Positions 886 through 58,880 of a DNA stretch of 64,000 nucleotides are shown one piece after another (the stretch's first letter is position 1; every line of letters begins with the position of its first letter). Origin of the DNA: SAR86 cluster bacterium. Lineage in GTDB: Bacteria > Pseudomonadota > Gammaproteobacteria > Magnimaribacterales > Magnimaribacteraceae. The stretch spans positions 1,149,517-1,213,516 of the forward strand of contig CP097969.1 in assembly GCA_023703575.1 (NCBI GenBank), in the 5' to 3' direction. Both the position numbers and the translations under genes were made by a program. Below the pieces are notes generated by a model. It was not told where the DNA came from. It did not search any database and saw only the letters and a list, made by a program, of their open reading frames with translations.

Positions 886-1356
886 TCAAAGATATTCTAC
901 TTTCTCAATCTCATATTCAGTAAGTCCGCCTGGAGTTTCTAATTTGATTAGATCTCCTTCGAACTTTCCAATTAATTTTTTTGCCAAGGGTGAAGCAAAC
1001 GAAATTTTACCGGCACTAGCATCTGCTTCGTCCTCTCCGACAATTTTATAAGTAAGTGATTTTTCTAAATTGGAGTTATAAACTTTTACTGTAGTTCCGA
1101 ATATTACTTTATCCGAAGATTCGATGGTTGTGACATCAATTACTTGGGCACTGGAGAGTTTTGATTCAATATCGCGAATTCTGGCTTCAGCTAAACTCTG
1201 TTCTTCCTTTGCAGCATGATATTCTGCATTTTCTTTTAAATCGCCGAATTCTCTAGCCGAGGCTATAGCATCAATTATTCTAGGCCTATCTTCCGATTTA
1301 AGTTTTTTCAGCTCTTCTCGTAAAAGAACTTCTCCTTCTTTTGTAATTGGATTCAT
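886..1356 (-). CDS. greA: Transcription elongation factor GreA
   Basis: The 156-residue protein has the GreA layout: an N-terminal antiparallel coiled coil (about residues 1-75) carrying the acidic tip [15 protein letters not shown], then a C-terminal globular domain ending in [14 protein letters not shown]. GreA enters the RNA polymerase secondary channel and stimulates cleavage of backtracked RNA. The start ATG overlaps the end of carB by one base, so it is probably cotranscribed with the carbamoyl-phosphate synthetase genes. This carB-greA adjacency is common in pseudomonads and relatives. Confidence 0.96.
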
Positions 1357-4300
1357 TATGAGATTTTATCATGAAGGTCTTGAAGTCTCTCAACCGACCA
1401 TAGGTCTTTATTGCGTATTACTGAGCAAACTGCCCGTCCACCTTCTAATGTCGTGGTGCAATAAATCTTTTCTTCTAAGGCAGTTCTTCTGATTGAGGCG
1501 GAATCAAGAATAGATTGTTTCCCTTCTGTGGTATTGACGATAAGGTCAACTTGTCCATTTTTCATCGCATCTACAACATGAGGTCTTCCTTCGGCTACTT
1601 TTTTAATAATGTCAACCTGTATTCCTGCTTCATTTATGTGTTTTGCAGTACCTTTAGTAGCAATAATATTAAATCCTAAATCAAAAAACTCCTTTGCAAG
1701 TTCTGCAACGAAAGGTCTATCTGAATCCCTCACGCTTAAAAAAACAGATCCCTCTCTAGGAATGATCTCACCCGCACCTAACTGTGCCTTAGCATAGGCT
1801 TCAGAAAAACTAGAACCCACTCCCATTACTTCTCCGGTCGATTTCATTTCAGGTCCTAAAATTGGGTCAACGCCTAAAAACTTATTGAAAGGAAAAACTG
1901 CCTCTTTAACAGAAAAATATTCTGGAACTATTTCCGTATTAAAATTTTGATCCTTGAGGCTAATACCGGCCATGCATAATGCTCCGGCTTTGGCCAATGA
2001 TCTTCCTATGCATTTCGAGACAAAGGGAATTGTTCTTGAAGCTCTGGGATTTACTTCAAGTAAATATAACTTTTCATTGTAGTAAGCTAGTTGAACGTTT
2101 ATAAGTCCTATAGCTCCAATCTCAATGGCTATCTTTTTAACCATCTGAGTAATTTCATCGATTAACTCTTCAGATAGACTGTATGGAGGTAGAGAGCAGG
2201 CAGAATCACCAGAATGTATCCCTGCCTGTTCAATATGCTGGAGAATTCCCCCAATAATGACGGTTTCACCGTCACATACGGCTTCAATATCCATCTCTAC
2301 AGCTTGATTGAGAAATCCATCTAGAAGTACAGGACTTTTTGCACTTGCCTGAACTGCTTCAACAAGATAATTTTCTAGATCTGTTTTTTTATAGACCACC
2401 TCCATAGCTCTTCCACCAAGAACATAAGAGGGTCTTACGACAAGTGGGAAACCAACTTGTTCAGAAACTTCCATCGCTTCCTCAACACTAGAAGCAATTC
2501 CATTTGGAGGTTGTTTCAAGTTATGTTTATTTACAAATTCTTGGAATCTCCCTCTATCTTCAGCCAGATCAATTGAATCAGGAGATGTACCCAAAATTGG
2601 AACACCGTTCTTTTCAAGCTCTTCCGCTATCTTCAAAGGCGTTTGTCCCCCATATTGAACAATAACACCCTGGGGTTTTTCGATATCCGTAATGGCAAGA
2701 ACATCTTCGACTGTTATTGGCTCAAAATATAATCTATCTGATGTATCAAAATCAGTTGAAACTGTTTCAGGGTTACAATTGACCATTATTGTTTCGTATC
2801 CTTCTTCTCTCAAGCCAAGAGCAGCATGTACGCAACAGTAATCAAACTCTATACCTTGCCCTATCCTATTAGGACCTCCTCCCAAGACCATAATTTTTTT
2901 ATTTTGAGTCACATTAGCTTCACATTCTTCCTCATATGTTGAGTACATATAGGCAGTTGAAGATTCAAACTCAGCAGCACATGTATCAACTCTTTTAAAT
3001 ACAGGATTTAGATTTAATGATTTTCTAAGTTGCCTAACTTGGTCTTCTGAACTTCCAATTAATTCACCGATTCTTGAATCAGAGAAACCTTTTCTCTTTA
3101 AACCGTATAATTGCTCATAGTCTAAATCTTTTAAGGAAACATTCTCAAGACTAACTTCTATATCTACGAGGTCTTTAATTTGAACCAAAAACCAGGGATC
3201 AATCTTAGAATATTCAAATACCTCGTCGGGTGTTAAACCATTCCTAAATCCATCTGCTACAAACCAAAGTCTATCGGGGCTAGGTATGCTTATTTTTTGC
3301 TTAAGAGTCTCAAATTCATCATCCTCATTAAAAATTGGATCAAGACCGCTGCGTCCGGTCTCTAGACCTCTGATAGCTTTTTGGAGCGACTCTTGAAATG
3401 TCCTACCAATAGCCATTACTTCTCCTACAGATTTCATTTGTGTTGATAAGACTGGATCTGTTTGGATAAACTTTTCAAAGTTAAATCTGGGAATCTTGGT
3501 CACAACATAGTCTATAGAAGGTTCAAAAGACGCCGGTATAACACCACCAGTAATATCATTACTCAATTCATCTAATGTATAGCCAACAGCTAGTTTTGCA
3601 GCAACCTTAGCTATCGGGAAGCCAGTTGCTTTTGAGGCTAAAGCTGAAGATCTGGAAACTCTTGGGTTCATCTCAATAATTAACATCTCACCATCTTCTG
3701 GATTGATGGTGAATTGGACATTTGAACCTCCAGTTTCGACTCCTATTTCCCTGAGAATATCAATGGAAGCATTTCTCATAATTTGATATTCCTTATCAGT
3801 AAGAGTTTGAGAGGGGGCGACGGTTATTGAGTCTCCTGTATGAACTCCCATAGGATCAAGATTTTCTATGCTACAAACGATTATGCAATTGTCATTCTTA
3901 TCTCTGACAACTTCCATTTCATATTCTTTCCAACCACCAAGAAATTTATCAATAAATATTTCAGAAGTTGGGGAAAGTTCTAATCCTCGTTTACAAATTT
4001 CATCAAATTCTTCTATGTTGTAAGCAATTCCTCCACCAGAACCACCCATAGTGAAGTTTGGTCTTAATACACAAGGAAAACCAATTCTTTCCAAAAGAAT
4101 GTGAGCCTCTTCATTATTATGTGCCAAACCAGATTCGGGAACTTTTAAGCCAATCTTTTCCATACACGCTGCAAATAATTCTCTATCCTCAGCCTTATCA
4201 ATTGCTTCTTTAGTTGCTCCTATCATTTCAACACTATGTTTTTTTAATATACCCCTGCTATCTAGATCTAGAGCAGCATTTAACGCAGTTTGACCTCCCA

Positions 4301-4568
4301 TAGTTGGTAATAATGCATCTGGTTTTTCTTTTTCAATTATTTTTTCAATAGTCTCCCAATGAATTGGTTCGATATATGTGGCATCTGACATGCTTGGATC
4401 TGTCATAATTGTTGCAGGATTTGAGTTGATTAAAATAACTCTATAACCATCTTCTTTTAATGCTTTGCAAGCTTGTGCTCCGGAATAATCAAATTCACAT
4501 GCCTGGCCAATTACGATAGGACCGGCTCCTATAATTAAAATTGAGTTTATGTCCTTTCTTCTAGGCAT
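1356..4568 (-). CDS. carB: Carbamoyl-phosphate synthase large subunit
   Basis: This 1070-residue protein uses ammonia delivered by CarA, bicarbonate and two ATP to make carbamoyl phosphate for arginine and pyrimidines. Two homologous ATP-grasp halves are visible: residues about 1-400 ([17 protein letters not shown] near the N-terminus) and about 555-935 ([18 protein letters not shown]). They flank an oligomerisation region, and an MGS-like allosteric domain occupies roughly the last 130 residues. Length matches the usual 1070-1075. The start lies within the last codons of carA (8 bp overlap), typical of a coupled carAB pair. Confidence 0.98.
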
Positions 4569-5676
4569 TTATACTCATATTTTTATCAAATGTTGAGAAT
4601 AGATAAGCCAAATCATGAGGTCCAGGGCTGGCTTCAGGATGCCCTTGAAAACTAAAAAAGGGTTTAGAAGAATGTTGAATTCCTTGAATAGTTCCATCAA
4701 ATAAGGATTTATGAGTTATCTCAACATCTGCAGGTAAGGAATTTTCTTCGACTGTGAAGCCATGATTCTGAGAGCTTACTGAAACTTTTCTTGTTTTGAG
4801 GTCTTGGACAGGATGATTTGCTCCATGATGACCAAATTTCATTTTTGATGTCTTACCACCCAATGCTATTGCTAGTAATTGATGACCTAGACAAATACCA
4901 AATACTGGCATACTGATTTGTATTAATTCTTTAATTGTCTCGATGGCATAGATGCATGGTTCAGGATCGCCAGGTCCGTTGGACAAAAACACACCATTTG
5001 GTTTGAAATCTAAAATTTCTTGGTACGAAGTTTTTGCGGGGAAAATTTTTAATTCATACCCATGGTCAGCTAATATTCTTAATATATTTTTTTTAATTCC
5101 GAAATCTAAAACTGCAACTCTAAAATCAGATTCACCATGATTTCCTCTCCATGTTCCTTCTTTCCAATCATAACTAGATTCTGTTGTAACTTCTTTTGCG
5201 AGATCTAATCCAGCTAAACCTTCAAAATCTTTCGCAAAATCTATTGCGTTGTTTGAATCAACTGAGTTACCAGTAAATATTGATGCTGACTGAGCACCTT
5301 TTTCTCTTATTATTCTTGTCAATTTTCTTGTGTCTATATCTGATATTCCTTGAATATTATTTCTAATTAGATAATTTGATAATGTTTCAGCATTACGCCA
5401 ACTACTTTCGGCCTGAGAAAGCGACCTTATAACTAATCCAGAACACCAAATTTTATCTGATTCAGTATCCTCACTATTTGTTCCTGTATTTCCAATATGT
5501 GGATAAGTTAAGGTTACTATTTGCTTGGCATATGAAGGGTCTGTAAGAATTTCTTGATAACCTGTCATTGAAGTGTTGAAAACAATTTCACCATTTACCC
5601 GTCCTGAAGCGCCAATACTTATGCCTTCGAAGATTGTTCCGTCTGCCAAAGCAAGTATTGCCTTTTCTTTACTCAT
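4561..5676 (-). CDS. carA: Carbamoyl-phosphate synthase small (glutaminase) subunit
   Basis: The 371-residue protein has an N-terminal CPSase small-subunit domain (about 1-180) and a class I glutamine amidotransferase domain. The catalytic triad is C262 (FGICLGHQL), H346 and E348 ([13 protein letters not shown]). It hydrolyses glutamine and channels ammonia to CarB. Its start overlaps the pyrF stop by 4 bp (ATGA), putting it in the same transcript as pyrF and behind the upstream attenuator-like leader. In pseudomonads and E. coli carA usually follows dapB; here dapB is elsewhere in the window. Confidence 0.98.
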
Positions 5677-6356
5677 GCAATTTTTAAATTGATTTCTTCT
5701 AAAGTGGCTCTGGGATTTTGGGAACCAGTAATGGGTCTTCCTATAACAAGAAAATCAGAACCATTTTTAACTGCTTCTTCGGGTGTTGATACTCTGCTTT
5801 GATCATCTAAATCAGATCGGAATGGTCTTATTCCAGGAGTTACTGTTAAAAAATCTTCACCGAATTCTTCTTTAATGTCTTTTGTATCTGAAGAGGCGCA
5901 CACAACACCATCTAACTCACATTCTTTAGCTAATGTCGCTAATCTTAAAACTTGCTCTGAAACTCCCTTTAAGCCAACTTCTTTGAGAGCATCTTCAGAT
6001 AGACTTGTTAAGACAGTAACACCGATTAAGAAGGGAGGTTGATCATAGCCTTCTAAGGCCCTTCTTGAGGCTTCCAGCATTTTAATGCCACCAGAAGCAT
6101 GAACATTTACCATCCATACTCCAAGATCAGCAGCGGATCTTACTGCTTCGTAGACAGTATTTGGAATATCGTGAAACTTTAAGTCTAAAAATATTTCAAA
6201 TCCCAGTCCTTTCAGATCAGTAATTACTTGAGGACCTGATGAAGTGAATAATTGGTTACCTACCTTTAACCTGCAGATTTTTGGATCAAGAGTTTTGGCA
6301 ATATTTAAAGCATTAATATGATCAAGATCTAGAGGAATAATGATTCTATTTTTCAT
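5673..6356 (-). CDS. pyrF: Orotidine 5'-phosphate decarboxylase
   Basis: The 227-residue TIM-barrel enzyme catalyses the last step of UMP synthesis. The catalytic D-x-K-x-x-D motif is D58-K60-D63 in [13 protein letters not shown]. The C-terminal phosphate-binding region reads TPGIRPF and [11 protein letters not shown]. Its ATG is not preceded by a Shine-Dalgarno but overlaps the stop of a 32-codon leader ORF (ATGA), suggesting translational coupling. It heads a pyrF-carA-carB transcript, a pyrimidine grouping that I do not know from model gammaproteobacteria. Confidence 0.96.
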
Positions 6357-6451
6357 ACTTTAATCAGGAGAACTGATAAAATTTGACAAAAAAAAACGAA
6401 CCAGAAAGGTATCTGAAGTTCGCATTTTTTATTTTTAAGGCCTAATGGCAT
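6353..6451 (-). CDS. Candidate leader peptide (32 aa) of the pyrF-carA-carB operon
   Basis: An ATG at 6451 opens 32 codons, beginning MPLGLKNKKC and ending SVLLIKV. It reads straight through the terminator hairpin at 6397-6422 and its T-run, where the T's encode FVFF. Its TGA overlaps the pyrF start codon. This geometry matches E. coli pyrBI, where a ribosome following closely behind RNA polymerase through the leader prevents the attenuator from forming when UTP is scarce. There is no clear Shine-Dalgarno, and the predicted transcript starts only about 6-8 nt upstream. A second overlapping frame (6360-6425, 21 codons) also crosses the hairpin but is less attractive because it stops just before pyrF. 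No protein-level evidence is available. Confidence 0.6.
   Translation of the reverse strand: MPLGLKNKKCELQIPFWFVFFCQILSVLLIKV
6388..6422 (-). terminator. Intrinsic terminator (attenuator) in the pyrF leader
   Basis: On the minus strand an inverted repeat CGAAC/GTTCG (6397-6422) is extended by CAGA/TCTG with a 2-nt bulge and a 6-nt loop. It is followed directly by nine T's (6388-6396). It lies 31 bp before the pyrF ATG and downstream of its predicted promoter, so it must be read through for the operon to be expressed. This is the clearest intrinsic terminator in the whole window. Confidence 0.75.
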
Positions 6452-6462
6452 TAAAACCACAC

Positions 6463-6468
6463 TATAAT
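6463..6468 (+). promoter_or_regulatory. Predicted -10 element for the map operon
   Basis: TATAAT on the plus strand at 6463-6468 is a perfect -10 hexamer about 48 bp before the map start. No good -35 is visible 16-18 bp upstream. It overlaps the minus-strand -10 of the pyrF promoter by five bases, so the two divergent operons may share one melted region. Confidence 0.4.
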
Positions 6469-6493
6469 AAATGTATGTTTCCCTGTCTATCAA
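6464..6493 (-). promoter_or_regulatory. Predicted sigma-70 promoter of the pyrF operon
   Basis: On the minus strand, TTGATA (6488-6493) is followed after 18 bp by TATTAT (6464-6469). The predicted first transcribed bases are about 6456-6458, giving a transcript starting near GGTTTTAATG. A run of T's at the very start of a pyrimidine-gene transcript resembles sites of UTP-dependent reiterative initiation known for E. coli pyrBI, carAB P1, codBA and upp. The exact start point is inferred. Confidence 0.5.
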
Positions 6494-6516: not shown

Positions 6517-7275
6517 GTGATTAATAATTTAGAAGAACTCAATGGAATGAGAAAGGCAGGCAGTCTTGCGGCTGAAGTATTGGAGATGATTGGAGAATTT
6601 ATCAAACCAGGAATCTCAACTGGAGAATTGGATAAAATTTGTTACGACTATATTGTAGACGTTCAAAAGGCTATTCCTGCAAATATAGGATATAGGGGTT
6701 TTGAGAAAACATTATGTACGAGTATCAATCAAGTTATATGTCATGGCATACCAGATGATTCTCGAATTCTTAAAAGTGGAGACATTATGAATATTGATGT
6801 CACAGTGATCAAAGATGGATGGCATGGGGATACTTCAAAAATGTATCTTGTTGGAAAAGTCCAAGCTCACAACGAAAGACTTGTAAAAATTACACAAGAA
6901 TGTCTCTATAAAGCTATAGAAGTTGTAAAACCCGGGGCAAGCCTAGGAGATATCGGTCATGCAATACAAACTCATGCGGAAAAAAATTACTACACTGTAG
7001 TTGAGGAATATTGTGGTCATGGAATTGGTAAAATCTATCATGACGAACCCCAGATACTTCATTATGGGGAAGCCAATACAGGACAAGAAATTATTGAGGG
7101 CATGTGTTTTACAATTGAACCTATGATCAATTTAGGCTCGAAACATACCAAACTATTAGAAGATGGATGGACAGTAGAAACTAAGGATGGCAAGAATTCA
7201 GCACAGTGGGAGCACACTATTTATGTAAATAAAGATGGCGCAGAAATTCTTACGCAAAGATCTGAAGAAAAATAA
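6517..7275 (+). CDS. map: Methionine aminopeptidase, type I
   Basis: The 252-residue enzyme removes the initiator methionine. The five metal ligands of type I MetAPs are present: D94, D105, H168, E201 and E232, in NIDVTVIKDG, HGDTSKM, YCGHGIG, FTIEPM and QWEHTI. The start is a GTG; translation from it aligns with the N-terminus of known family members, whereas the next ATG would remove the first helix. It opens the map-glnD-dapC-dapD-dapE operon. In E. coli and pseudomonads map is divergent from rpsB, but here it is divergent from pyrF. Confidence 0.96.
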   Translation: MINNLEELNGMRKAGSLAAEVLEMIGEFIKPGISTGELDKICYDYIVDVQKAIPANIGYRGFEKTLCTSINQVICHGIPDDSRILKSGDIMNIDVTVIKDGWHGDTSKMYLVGKVQAHNERLVKITQECLYKAIEVVKPGASLGDIGHAIQTHAEKNYYTVVEEYCGHGIGKIYHDEPQILHYGEANTGQEIIEGMCFTIEPMINLGSKHTKLLEDGWTVETKDGKNSAQWEHTIYVNKDGAEILTQRSEEK

Positions 7276-58525: not shown

Positions 58526-58880
58526 GGGGGCGAACTGGCTTCGACAGTAGATATAAAACCTCAAGTGCATGTCGAGAAGGTAATAATTCTCGTTAAAAAA
58601 TTATTGCAAACTTGTTAGTTGGCGAAAACGCAGACTACGCTCTAGCCGCTTAATTGGCTAGCTGTCCCTGGTAACGTGCTCGTGCGCCTCCAGAGACAGA
58701 CGATTACACGAGATGCTGAAGTTACTCTTCTCATTAGTAATTTCTTAAGAATAAATTGAGATCGTCTTTTAATCCCTGTTTATCGGGTGTCAAAAGATTA
58801 AATTAATAGATAAAACTAAACATGTAGATCTTGTGGCAGAGTACTAGTGGACGCGGGTTCAATTCCCGCCGCCTCCACCA
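58526..58880 (+). ncRNA. ssrA: Transfer-messenger RNA (tmRNA)
   Basis: The 5' end GGGGGCGAACTGGCTTCGAC and the 3' end GACGCGGGTTCAATTCCCGCC followed by GCCTCCACCA are diagnostic. The acceptor stem pairs GGGGGCG with CGCCTCC (one G-U), the T arm is complete, and CCA is encoded. It is about 355 nt, one-piece form. It rescues ribosomes stalled on broken mRNA together with SmpB, encoded just upstream. The proteolysis-tag ORF is listed separately. Confidence 0.97.
58621..58653 (+). other. tmRNA proteolysis-tag reading frame
   Basis: The frame ending TAA at 58651-58653 encodes GENADYALAA, whose YALAA end matches the ClpXP degron of E. coli (ANDENYALAA). The resume codon is taken as GGC at 58621, because TTAGTT just before it resembles the E. 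coli ATAGTC determinant upstream of its resume codon. The upstream in-frame codons would lengthen the tag if a different resume codon were used. Confidence 0.65.

Follow-up and report, generated by a model that had tools for sequence, protein, structure and literature searches.

What sets the expression of the operon that begins pyrimidine and arginine synthesis in SAR86, an abundant marine lineage that has small genomes and has hardly been brought into culture? The window, by which we mean the whole 64,000-nucleotide stretch of SAR86 DNA that was analysed, carries on its minus strand, in this order, a promoter, a leader, pyrF, carA and carB, with overlaps of a few bases between successive genes (Table 1). 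A tmRNA gene at window positions 58526-58880 is the only match of the window at the Rfam gathering level. The first-pass annotation had read the region ahead of pyrF as a pyrBI-style attenuator. Our analysis leads to a larger finding: the leader is probably a cis-acting, translation-coupled transcription attenuator of the carAB operon, of the pyrBI type, and it includes two elements that had been overlooked, namely a 5' hairpin containing the leader ATG (here called P1) and a family of related genomes in which the terminator is missing.

Table 1. Positions in the window of the leader elements, the operon genes and the divergent neighbour.
Feature	Position	Strand	Basis
-35 element, TAGACA	6484..6489	-	promoter scan; TRGACN at the same place in 103/103 leaders
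-10 element, TATAGT, spacer 17	6461..6466	-	promoter scan; leader alignment
P1, TTTTAATGCC-NNTA-GGCCTTAAAA, one U-C mismatch, encloses the leader ATG	6433..6456	-	folding, leader alignments
Leader ORF, 32 codons, ATG at 6451, stop TGA 6355-6353	6353..6451	-	read directly
Terminator hairpin, 5+4 bp with bulge	6397..6422	-	read directly, folding
Terminator T-run, nine T	6388..6396	-	read directly
pyrF, orotidine-5'-phosphate decarboxylase	5673..6356	-	NF001273, TIGR01740
carA, carbamoyl-phosphate synthase small subunit	4561..5676	-	TIGR01368
carB, carbamoyl-phosphate synthase large subunit	1356..4568	-	TIGR01369
map, methionyl aminopeptidase, divergent neighbour	6517..7275	+	TIGR00500

We searched 203 genomes of the SAR86 order, belonging to four families labelled f1 to f4, and obtained a carA match in 177 of them (by row count, 30 in f1, 92 in f2, 35 in f3 and 20 in f4). 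At 111 loci (29, 43, 33 and 6, respectively) we read the DNA ahead of the leading gene of the operon, which is either carA or pyrF; the f2 loci were chosen to span genera, with g18 not covered, and among the f1 genomes G012 and G018 were omitted, their contigs beginning inside the operon, while G006 was added via its pyrF end. A parsing pattern made up of a -10-like hexamer, 9 nt and AATG matched 104 of the 105 loci outside f4, the remaining locus being cut by a contig end. The parsed leaders number 103 (29 f1, 42 f2 and 32 f3); outside the counts stand L208, where a leader is present and the carA start was left unresolved by the script, L184, which runs into a contig end, and the six loci of f4. 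In three of the four families (103 leaders), the leading gene of the carAB operon is preceded by a common arrangement of the promoter, a leader ATG 9 nt downstream, P1 around this ATG and the leader ORF. No leader was seen at the six f4 loci (L176-L181, from a family with carA in 20 genomes), where carA starts 13-14 nt past TATAGT.

For the promoter, the register TTGATA-18-TATTAT had originally been proposed, and here our reading departs from it. TAGACA-17-TATAGT (6489-6461) is the more likely promoter of the window, since TRGACN sits 17 nt before the -10 element in 103/103 leaders, an arrangement that the parsing pattern did not demand. The -10 element itself occurs as TATAGT (48 leaders), TAAAGT (42) or TAGAGT (13). 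Numbered from the base after the -10 element, positions 1-4 are variable and conservation starts at position 5: positions 5-8 are pyrimidines in 102, 103, 103 and 103 of the 103 leaders, and positions 9-12 read AATG, as the pattern demanded. A Shine-Dalgarno 4-mer is found before the leader ATG in none of the 103 leaders and before the first gene in none of the 29 f1 leaders, and direct reading bears out the earlier remark that pyrF lacks one.

The device had also been taken as peculiar to a pyrF operon, which the relatives contradict. Although pyrF heads the operon in 18 of the 29 f1 leaders (16 in g1, 2 in g4), carA lies directly 3' of the leader in the other 11, as it does in f2 and f3, and by this gene order we read the leader as a property of carAB, not of pyrF. 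Six relatives that were read have pyrF outside the car operon, from which we infer that pyrF probably moved into a pre-existing carAB operon in g1 and some of g4, the leader stop coming to lie close to the start of the first gene once more. Upstream of pyrB, no like leader was seen by eye at 12 g1 loci (L272-L283; L277 offers 62 nt only), and a terminator scan of the same loci gave a match at -7 kcal/mol or lower in two, L276 and L279, where the hairpin and T-run look like part of the end of an upstream ORF. By eye, pyrF stands behind a small membrane-protein-like ORF in L017, L019, L020, L021, L026 and L029.

The terminator of the first-pass annotation, a bulged 9-bp hairpin with nine T inside the leader ORF, is upheld. 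In the window, CGAAC pairs with GTTCG and CAGA with TCTG around a 2-nt bulge. The 51-nt region that holds this hairpin has a folding energy of -12.5 kcal/mol (z -3.9), and none of 200 shuffles folds as well. A simple terminator scan (loop 3-8 nt) did not report this hairpin, presumably through its bulge-free rule. A hairpin followed by 8-9 T is present in all 61 f1 and f3 leaders, at -6.7 to -13.0 kcal/mol, and a stricter scan recovered 60 of them (28/29 f1, 32/32 f3). The hairpin, the T-run and the leader frame, on whose conservation the annotation had staked its claim, are thus kept among relatives. It had also suggested looking for compensatory stem changes. Among the 22 distinct f3 sequences, the closing pair of the terminator is AU 11 times, UA 10 times and GU once; none of 500 shuffles reached as high a covariation score, but a slide of the partners by -3 scores just as high (0.096 versus 0.093, with 45.9 versus 92.7% paired). 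In f1, two stem pairs are altered on both sides (25 distinct sequences of 29), but the total score is not above that of shuffles, 98 of 500 being as high.

A leader ORF running through an intrinsic terminator, its overlap with the first gene and its conservation among relatives are borne out, and to this extent the earlier reading stands. For pyrBI-like sensing of UTP the picture is mixed: a run of at least three T in the interval from leader ATG to hairpin base occurs in 5/29 f1 and 18/32 f3 leaders, and no conserved U-rich tract was found ahead of the hairpin in the 29 f1 leaders. As the f1 leaders do not keep the pause tract that a strict copy of pyrBI would have, the sensing step is likely to lie nearer the 5' end, where a fixed spacing, a pyrimidine tract, the AA and a hairpin are found.

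Family f2 has no intrinsic terminator (0/42 leaders). Its loci (among L160-L241) retain the promoter, P1 and the leader ORF, and a C-rich, G-poor tract lies where the terminator would be: in the stretch from P1 up to 16 nt ahead of the gene, C makes up 20.1% and G 2.9%, and the C/G ratio of the P1-to-gene tract is 7.0, compared with 1.67 for f1 and 1.45 for f3. Such a composition is described for Rho sites in the accessible part of PMC5021804, and a rho gene was found in 9/9 f2 genomes searched and in 54/61 genomes in all. We regard it as possible, if short of probable, that in f2 the intrinsic terminator was swapped for something else, perhaps Rho.

Does the leader frame bear the marks of a translated sequence? 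In the window, direct reading confirmed the 32-codon ORF as first described, with a stop that overlaps the pyrF ATG (6356) as ATGA. In f1 and f3, the ORF reaches or crosses the hairpin in 61/61 leaders, and the stop falls within -15 to +17 nt of the next start in 95/103 leaders, an interval chosen after inspection of the data; the exceptions are all eight g13 leaders, with the stop inside the hairpin (six) or just before it (two). The stop overlaps carA in f2 by one base (e.g. TAATG) in 30 of 42 leaders, by four in 7 and by eleven in 5; in the ten f1 leaders whose frame closes ahead of the gene start, the stop falls 1-15 nt short of it. In shuffled post-P1 DNA the chance of a stop in this interval is 0.12-0.75 per genus, so that an open frame by chance is not rare; multiplied over 18 genera with one draw each it becomes about 10^-9.7, a figure to be taken only as a guide because the interval is post hoc, the genera are related and g13 is excluded. 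Of the three reading frames downstream of P1, frame 0 stays open as far as the gene start in 19/29 f1, 42/42 f2, 23/24 f3 leaders outside g13 and 0/8 g13 leaders, frame +1 in 13/29, 16/42, 1/24 and 0/8, and frame +2 in 4 f1, 0 f2, 1 f3 outside g13 and 6 g13 leaders. Given these control counts, we judge the frame evidence to be strong for both f2 and f3, but weaker for f1 taken by itself.

Differences after P1 are spread evenly over codon positions 1, 2 and 3, with counts of 191/162/169 in f1, 209/203/207 in f2 and 158/152/163 in f3 from within-genus leader pairs (35, 43 and 96, respectively) that are not independent of one another. Because the codon positions diverge in this even manner, it is translation of the leader that seems to be selected, and not the sequence of the peptide. 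The frame relative to the hairpin also differs between g1 and g2, the hairpin being crossed in both. That carAB feeds arginine synthesis as well might suggest an attenuator sensing arginine via the leader codons, and 31/103 leaders have at least one Arg within the first 12 codons. However, only 1.4% of the leader residues are Arg in f1, 2.2% in f2 and 3.5% in f3, two adjacent Arg occur in 2/103 leaders, no Arg run precedes the hairpin and the leader peptide is not conserved, making this the least credible of the readings considered here.

As a translation-coupled attenuator, the leader would work in the following manner. Transcription would start just ahead of the Shine-Dalgarno-less leader ORF, and ribosomes moving close behind RNA polymerase would cover an arm of the terminator, so that no hairpin forms and transcription reads through into (pyrF-)carA-carB; the leader stop, placed at the next start, would pass these ribosomes on to the first gene. 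With the leader untranslated in time, the hairpin and T-run would terminate transcription. Translating ribosomes are described as suppressing intrinsic terminators in the accessible parts of PMC4824070, PMC3641672 and PMC7818426, and termination together with its suppression by ribosomes is very likely the mode of action here. P1, with the leader ATG in its stem, would be the gate, a complete and folded P1 excluding ribosomes, and we give this gating of the leader start an even chance. Low pyrimidine supply would favour leader translation, and a low pyrimidine nucleotide pool (UTP) is a reasonably likely signal.

The properties of P1 itself bear on this gate. The first arm, at positions 6-13 (6-12 in f2), faces the second with standard pairs at positions 8, 9, 10 and 12 in 103/103 leaders, at position 7 in 102 and at position 6 in 95, while position 11, the U and middle base of the ATG, is mismatched or unpaired in 23/29 f1 leaders. 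Pair 7 is U-A in 69 leaders, C-G in 28 and U-G in 5; by family, it is U-A in 28/29 f1 and 41/42 f2 leaders, and in f3 C-G in 28/32 and U-G in 4/32. Shuffles fold as well as P1 in a mean of 2.8 (f1), 3.7 (f2) and 0.1 (f3) per 100. The hairpin is near-invariant within each family, and f2 has no pair with changes on both sides. CATTA stands in a codon phase in f1 (g2, g6, g7) unlike that in f2 and f3, for which reason we take the second arm to be maintained as nucleic acid and not as codons. Around this arm, f2 has a conserved stretch of the type ATTTTAGCYCATTA.

Arms that are near-palindromic and nearly invariant could also belong to a DNA operator of a dimeric repressor, placed at the start site by chance. 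Against such an operator, the arms are separated by 8 nt in f1, 19 nt in f2 and 7 nt in f3, and pair 7 in five leaders is, as DNA, T-G and not Watson-Crick, and we consider it improbable. No second copy of P1 was found in its own genome (1 match at up to 3 mismatches), and a search of the 203 order genomes at up to 1 mismatch gave one match each in 20, all of them in g1 and g4. A metabolite riboswitch would also present itself as conserved leader RNA ahead of a biosynthetic operon, and a carA riboswitch candidate has been proposed in Polynucleobacter, according to the accessible part of PMC8632094. Yet no loop core is common to the families, the leader has no Rfam match at the gathering level (in the window and at 17 loci), and a riboswitch would leave the upkeep of the frame unexplained, so that we hold it to be very unlikely.

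If the translation-coupled attenuator senses UTP near its 5' end, the choice of start nucleotide offers one route, in which a pyrC-like start-site switch is joined to pyrBI-like attenuation; this would refine the preferred explanation without excluding it. At high UTP, transcripts would start in the pyrimidine tract (positions 5-8) and form a complete P1 with the leader ATG hidden inside it. At low UTP, starts at A9 or A10 would yield a near-leaderless AAUG transcript in which P1 is weak, so that the leader is translated and transcription reads through. The pyrimidines kept at positions 5-8 beside variable positions 1-4 fit this switch, as does the AATG at positions 9-12; moving the start from position 6 to position 9 changes P1 from -6.0, -5.6 and -8.5 to -3.5, -2.6 and -3.5 kcal/mol in f1, f2 and f3, a difference of 2.5 to 5 kcal/mol between U and A starts, and the fixed -10-to-ATG distance and the missing Shine-Dalgarno would both be accounted for. 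However, in f3 the ATG is still predicted to be paired with a start at position 9 (unpaired 0.02-0.06) and, for the most part, with one at position 10 (0.19-0.33), and in f1 its unpaired fraction rises only from 0.29 to 0.47 (position 9) or 0.56 (position 10). We put the switch forward tentatively, as our boldest reading, and with the same reserve the two-layer UTP sensor that it would complete, in which a U or A start decides whether P1 hides the leader start, leader translation then decides termination, and f2 couples the same front end to a Rho-type tract. We have not met such a two-layer sensor in print.

UTP-sensitive slippage of the pyrBI kind (reiterative transcription on a T-run at the start) is another conceivable route. 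A run of at least three T at positions 4-9 is present in 29/29 f1 and 42/42 f2 leaders, and E. coli carAB P1 (a name unrelated to our hairpin) slips on GUUUGC, as stated in the accessible part of PMC6245113. In f3, however, the run is seen in 11/32 leaders and is thus not kept across the order, whereas C7 in 28/32 preserves the P1 pair; because most f3 leaders interrupt the T-run and yet retain the pair, slippage is an unlikely sensor.

The attenuator read in this way would be a regulator of about 100 nt that uses no dedicated protein and is kept in three families despite changes of terminator, loops and downstream gene, resembling an RNA switch that turns genes on when the supply of building blocks is low. 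It illustrates how small genomes may control a nitrogen-costly synthesis, and its natural variants make start choice, leader translation and terminator type separately testable. We found no description of a SAR86 leader of such kind in the literature searched, whose coverage left out most subscription papers; the accessible text of PMC2965389 yielded nothing on carA.

Several known systems resemble the SAR86 leader in part. In E. coli pyrC, a 5' terminal hairpin whose completeness is set by the start nucleotide blocks pyrC translation directly, whereas the SAR86 hairpin would gate a leader ORF ahead of a terminator. In pyrBI, translation of the leader matters and the peptide does not. E. coli pyrBI (and pyrE) and SAR86 have in common a leader ORF that crosses an intrinsic terminator upstream of an operon for pyrimidine synthesis; unlike pyrBI, the SAR86 leader serves carAB, lacks a Shine-Dalgarno, has its ATG inside a 5' hairpin and, in f1, has no conserved U-rich tract ahead of the terminator hairpin, and no such leader stands before pyrB at the 12 g1 loci. 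The pyrBI leader ORF is described in the accessible parts of PMC4824070, PMC3641672 and PMC7818426 as containing a U-rich stretch and spanning the intrinsic terminator. E. coli carAB is similar in having pyrimidine control at the carAB start and a T-run at the P1 start; there, P1 is described as controlled by slippage and protein factors, and P2 is said not to be subject to attenuation (accessible part of PMC6245113). Pseudomonas aeruginosa carAB, compared here by description only, shares a single promoter, a leader peptide, a stem-loop and the carAB genes themselves. Kwon reportedly described this leader in 1994. For Pseudomonas carAB, the accessible part of PMC4997734 gives a leader peptide, attenuation and a stem-loop on which the response to pyrimidines depends.

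Among other Gammaproteobacteria, we read 90 loci from 97 genomes with a carA match (L242-L271, L284-L343). A hairpin with a T-run lies within 140 nt of carA in 45/90, and 28 of those 45 have a CGGGA..TCCCG core with a T-run beginning 21-62 nt before carA; these terminators may represent a class-wide carA attenuator of their own. An ATG leader ORF running through the terminator and ending near carA was counted in 5/90 loci, GTG and TTG starts being left uncounted. Because half of these loci have a terminator near carA, attenuation ahead of this gene is probably of long standing, and we read the SAR86 form as a variant of it in which the leader frame is maintained, a 5' hairpin covers the start of the leader and one family is without the terminator.
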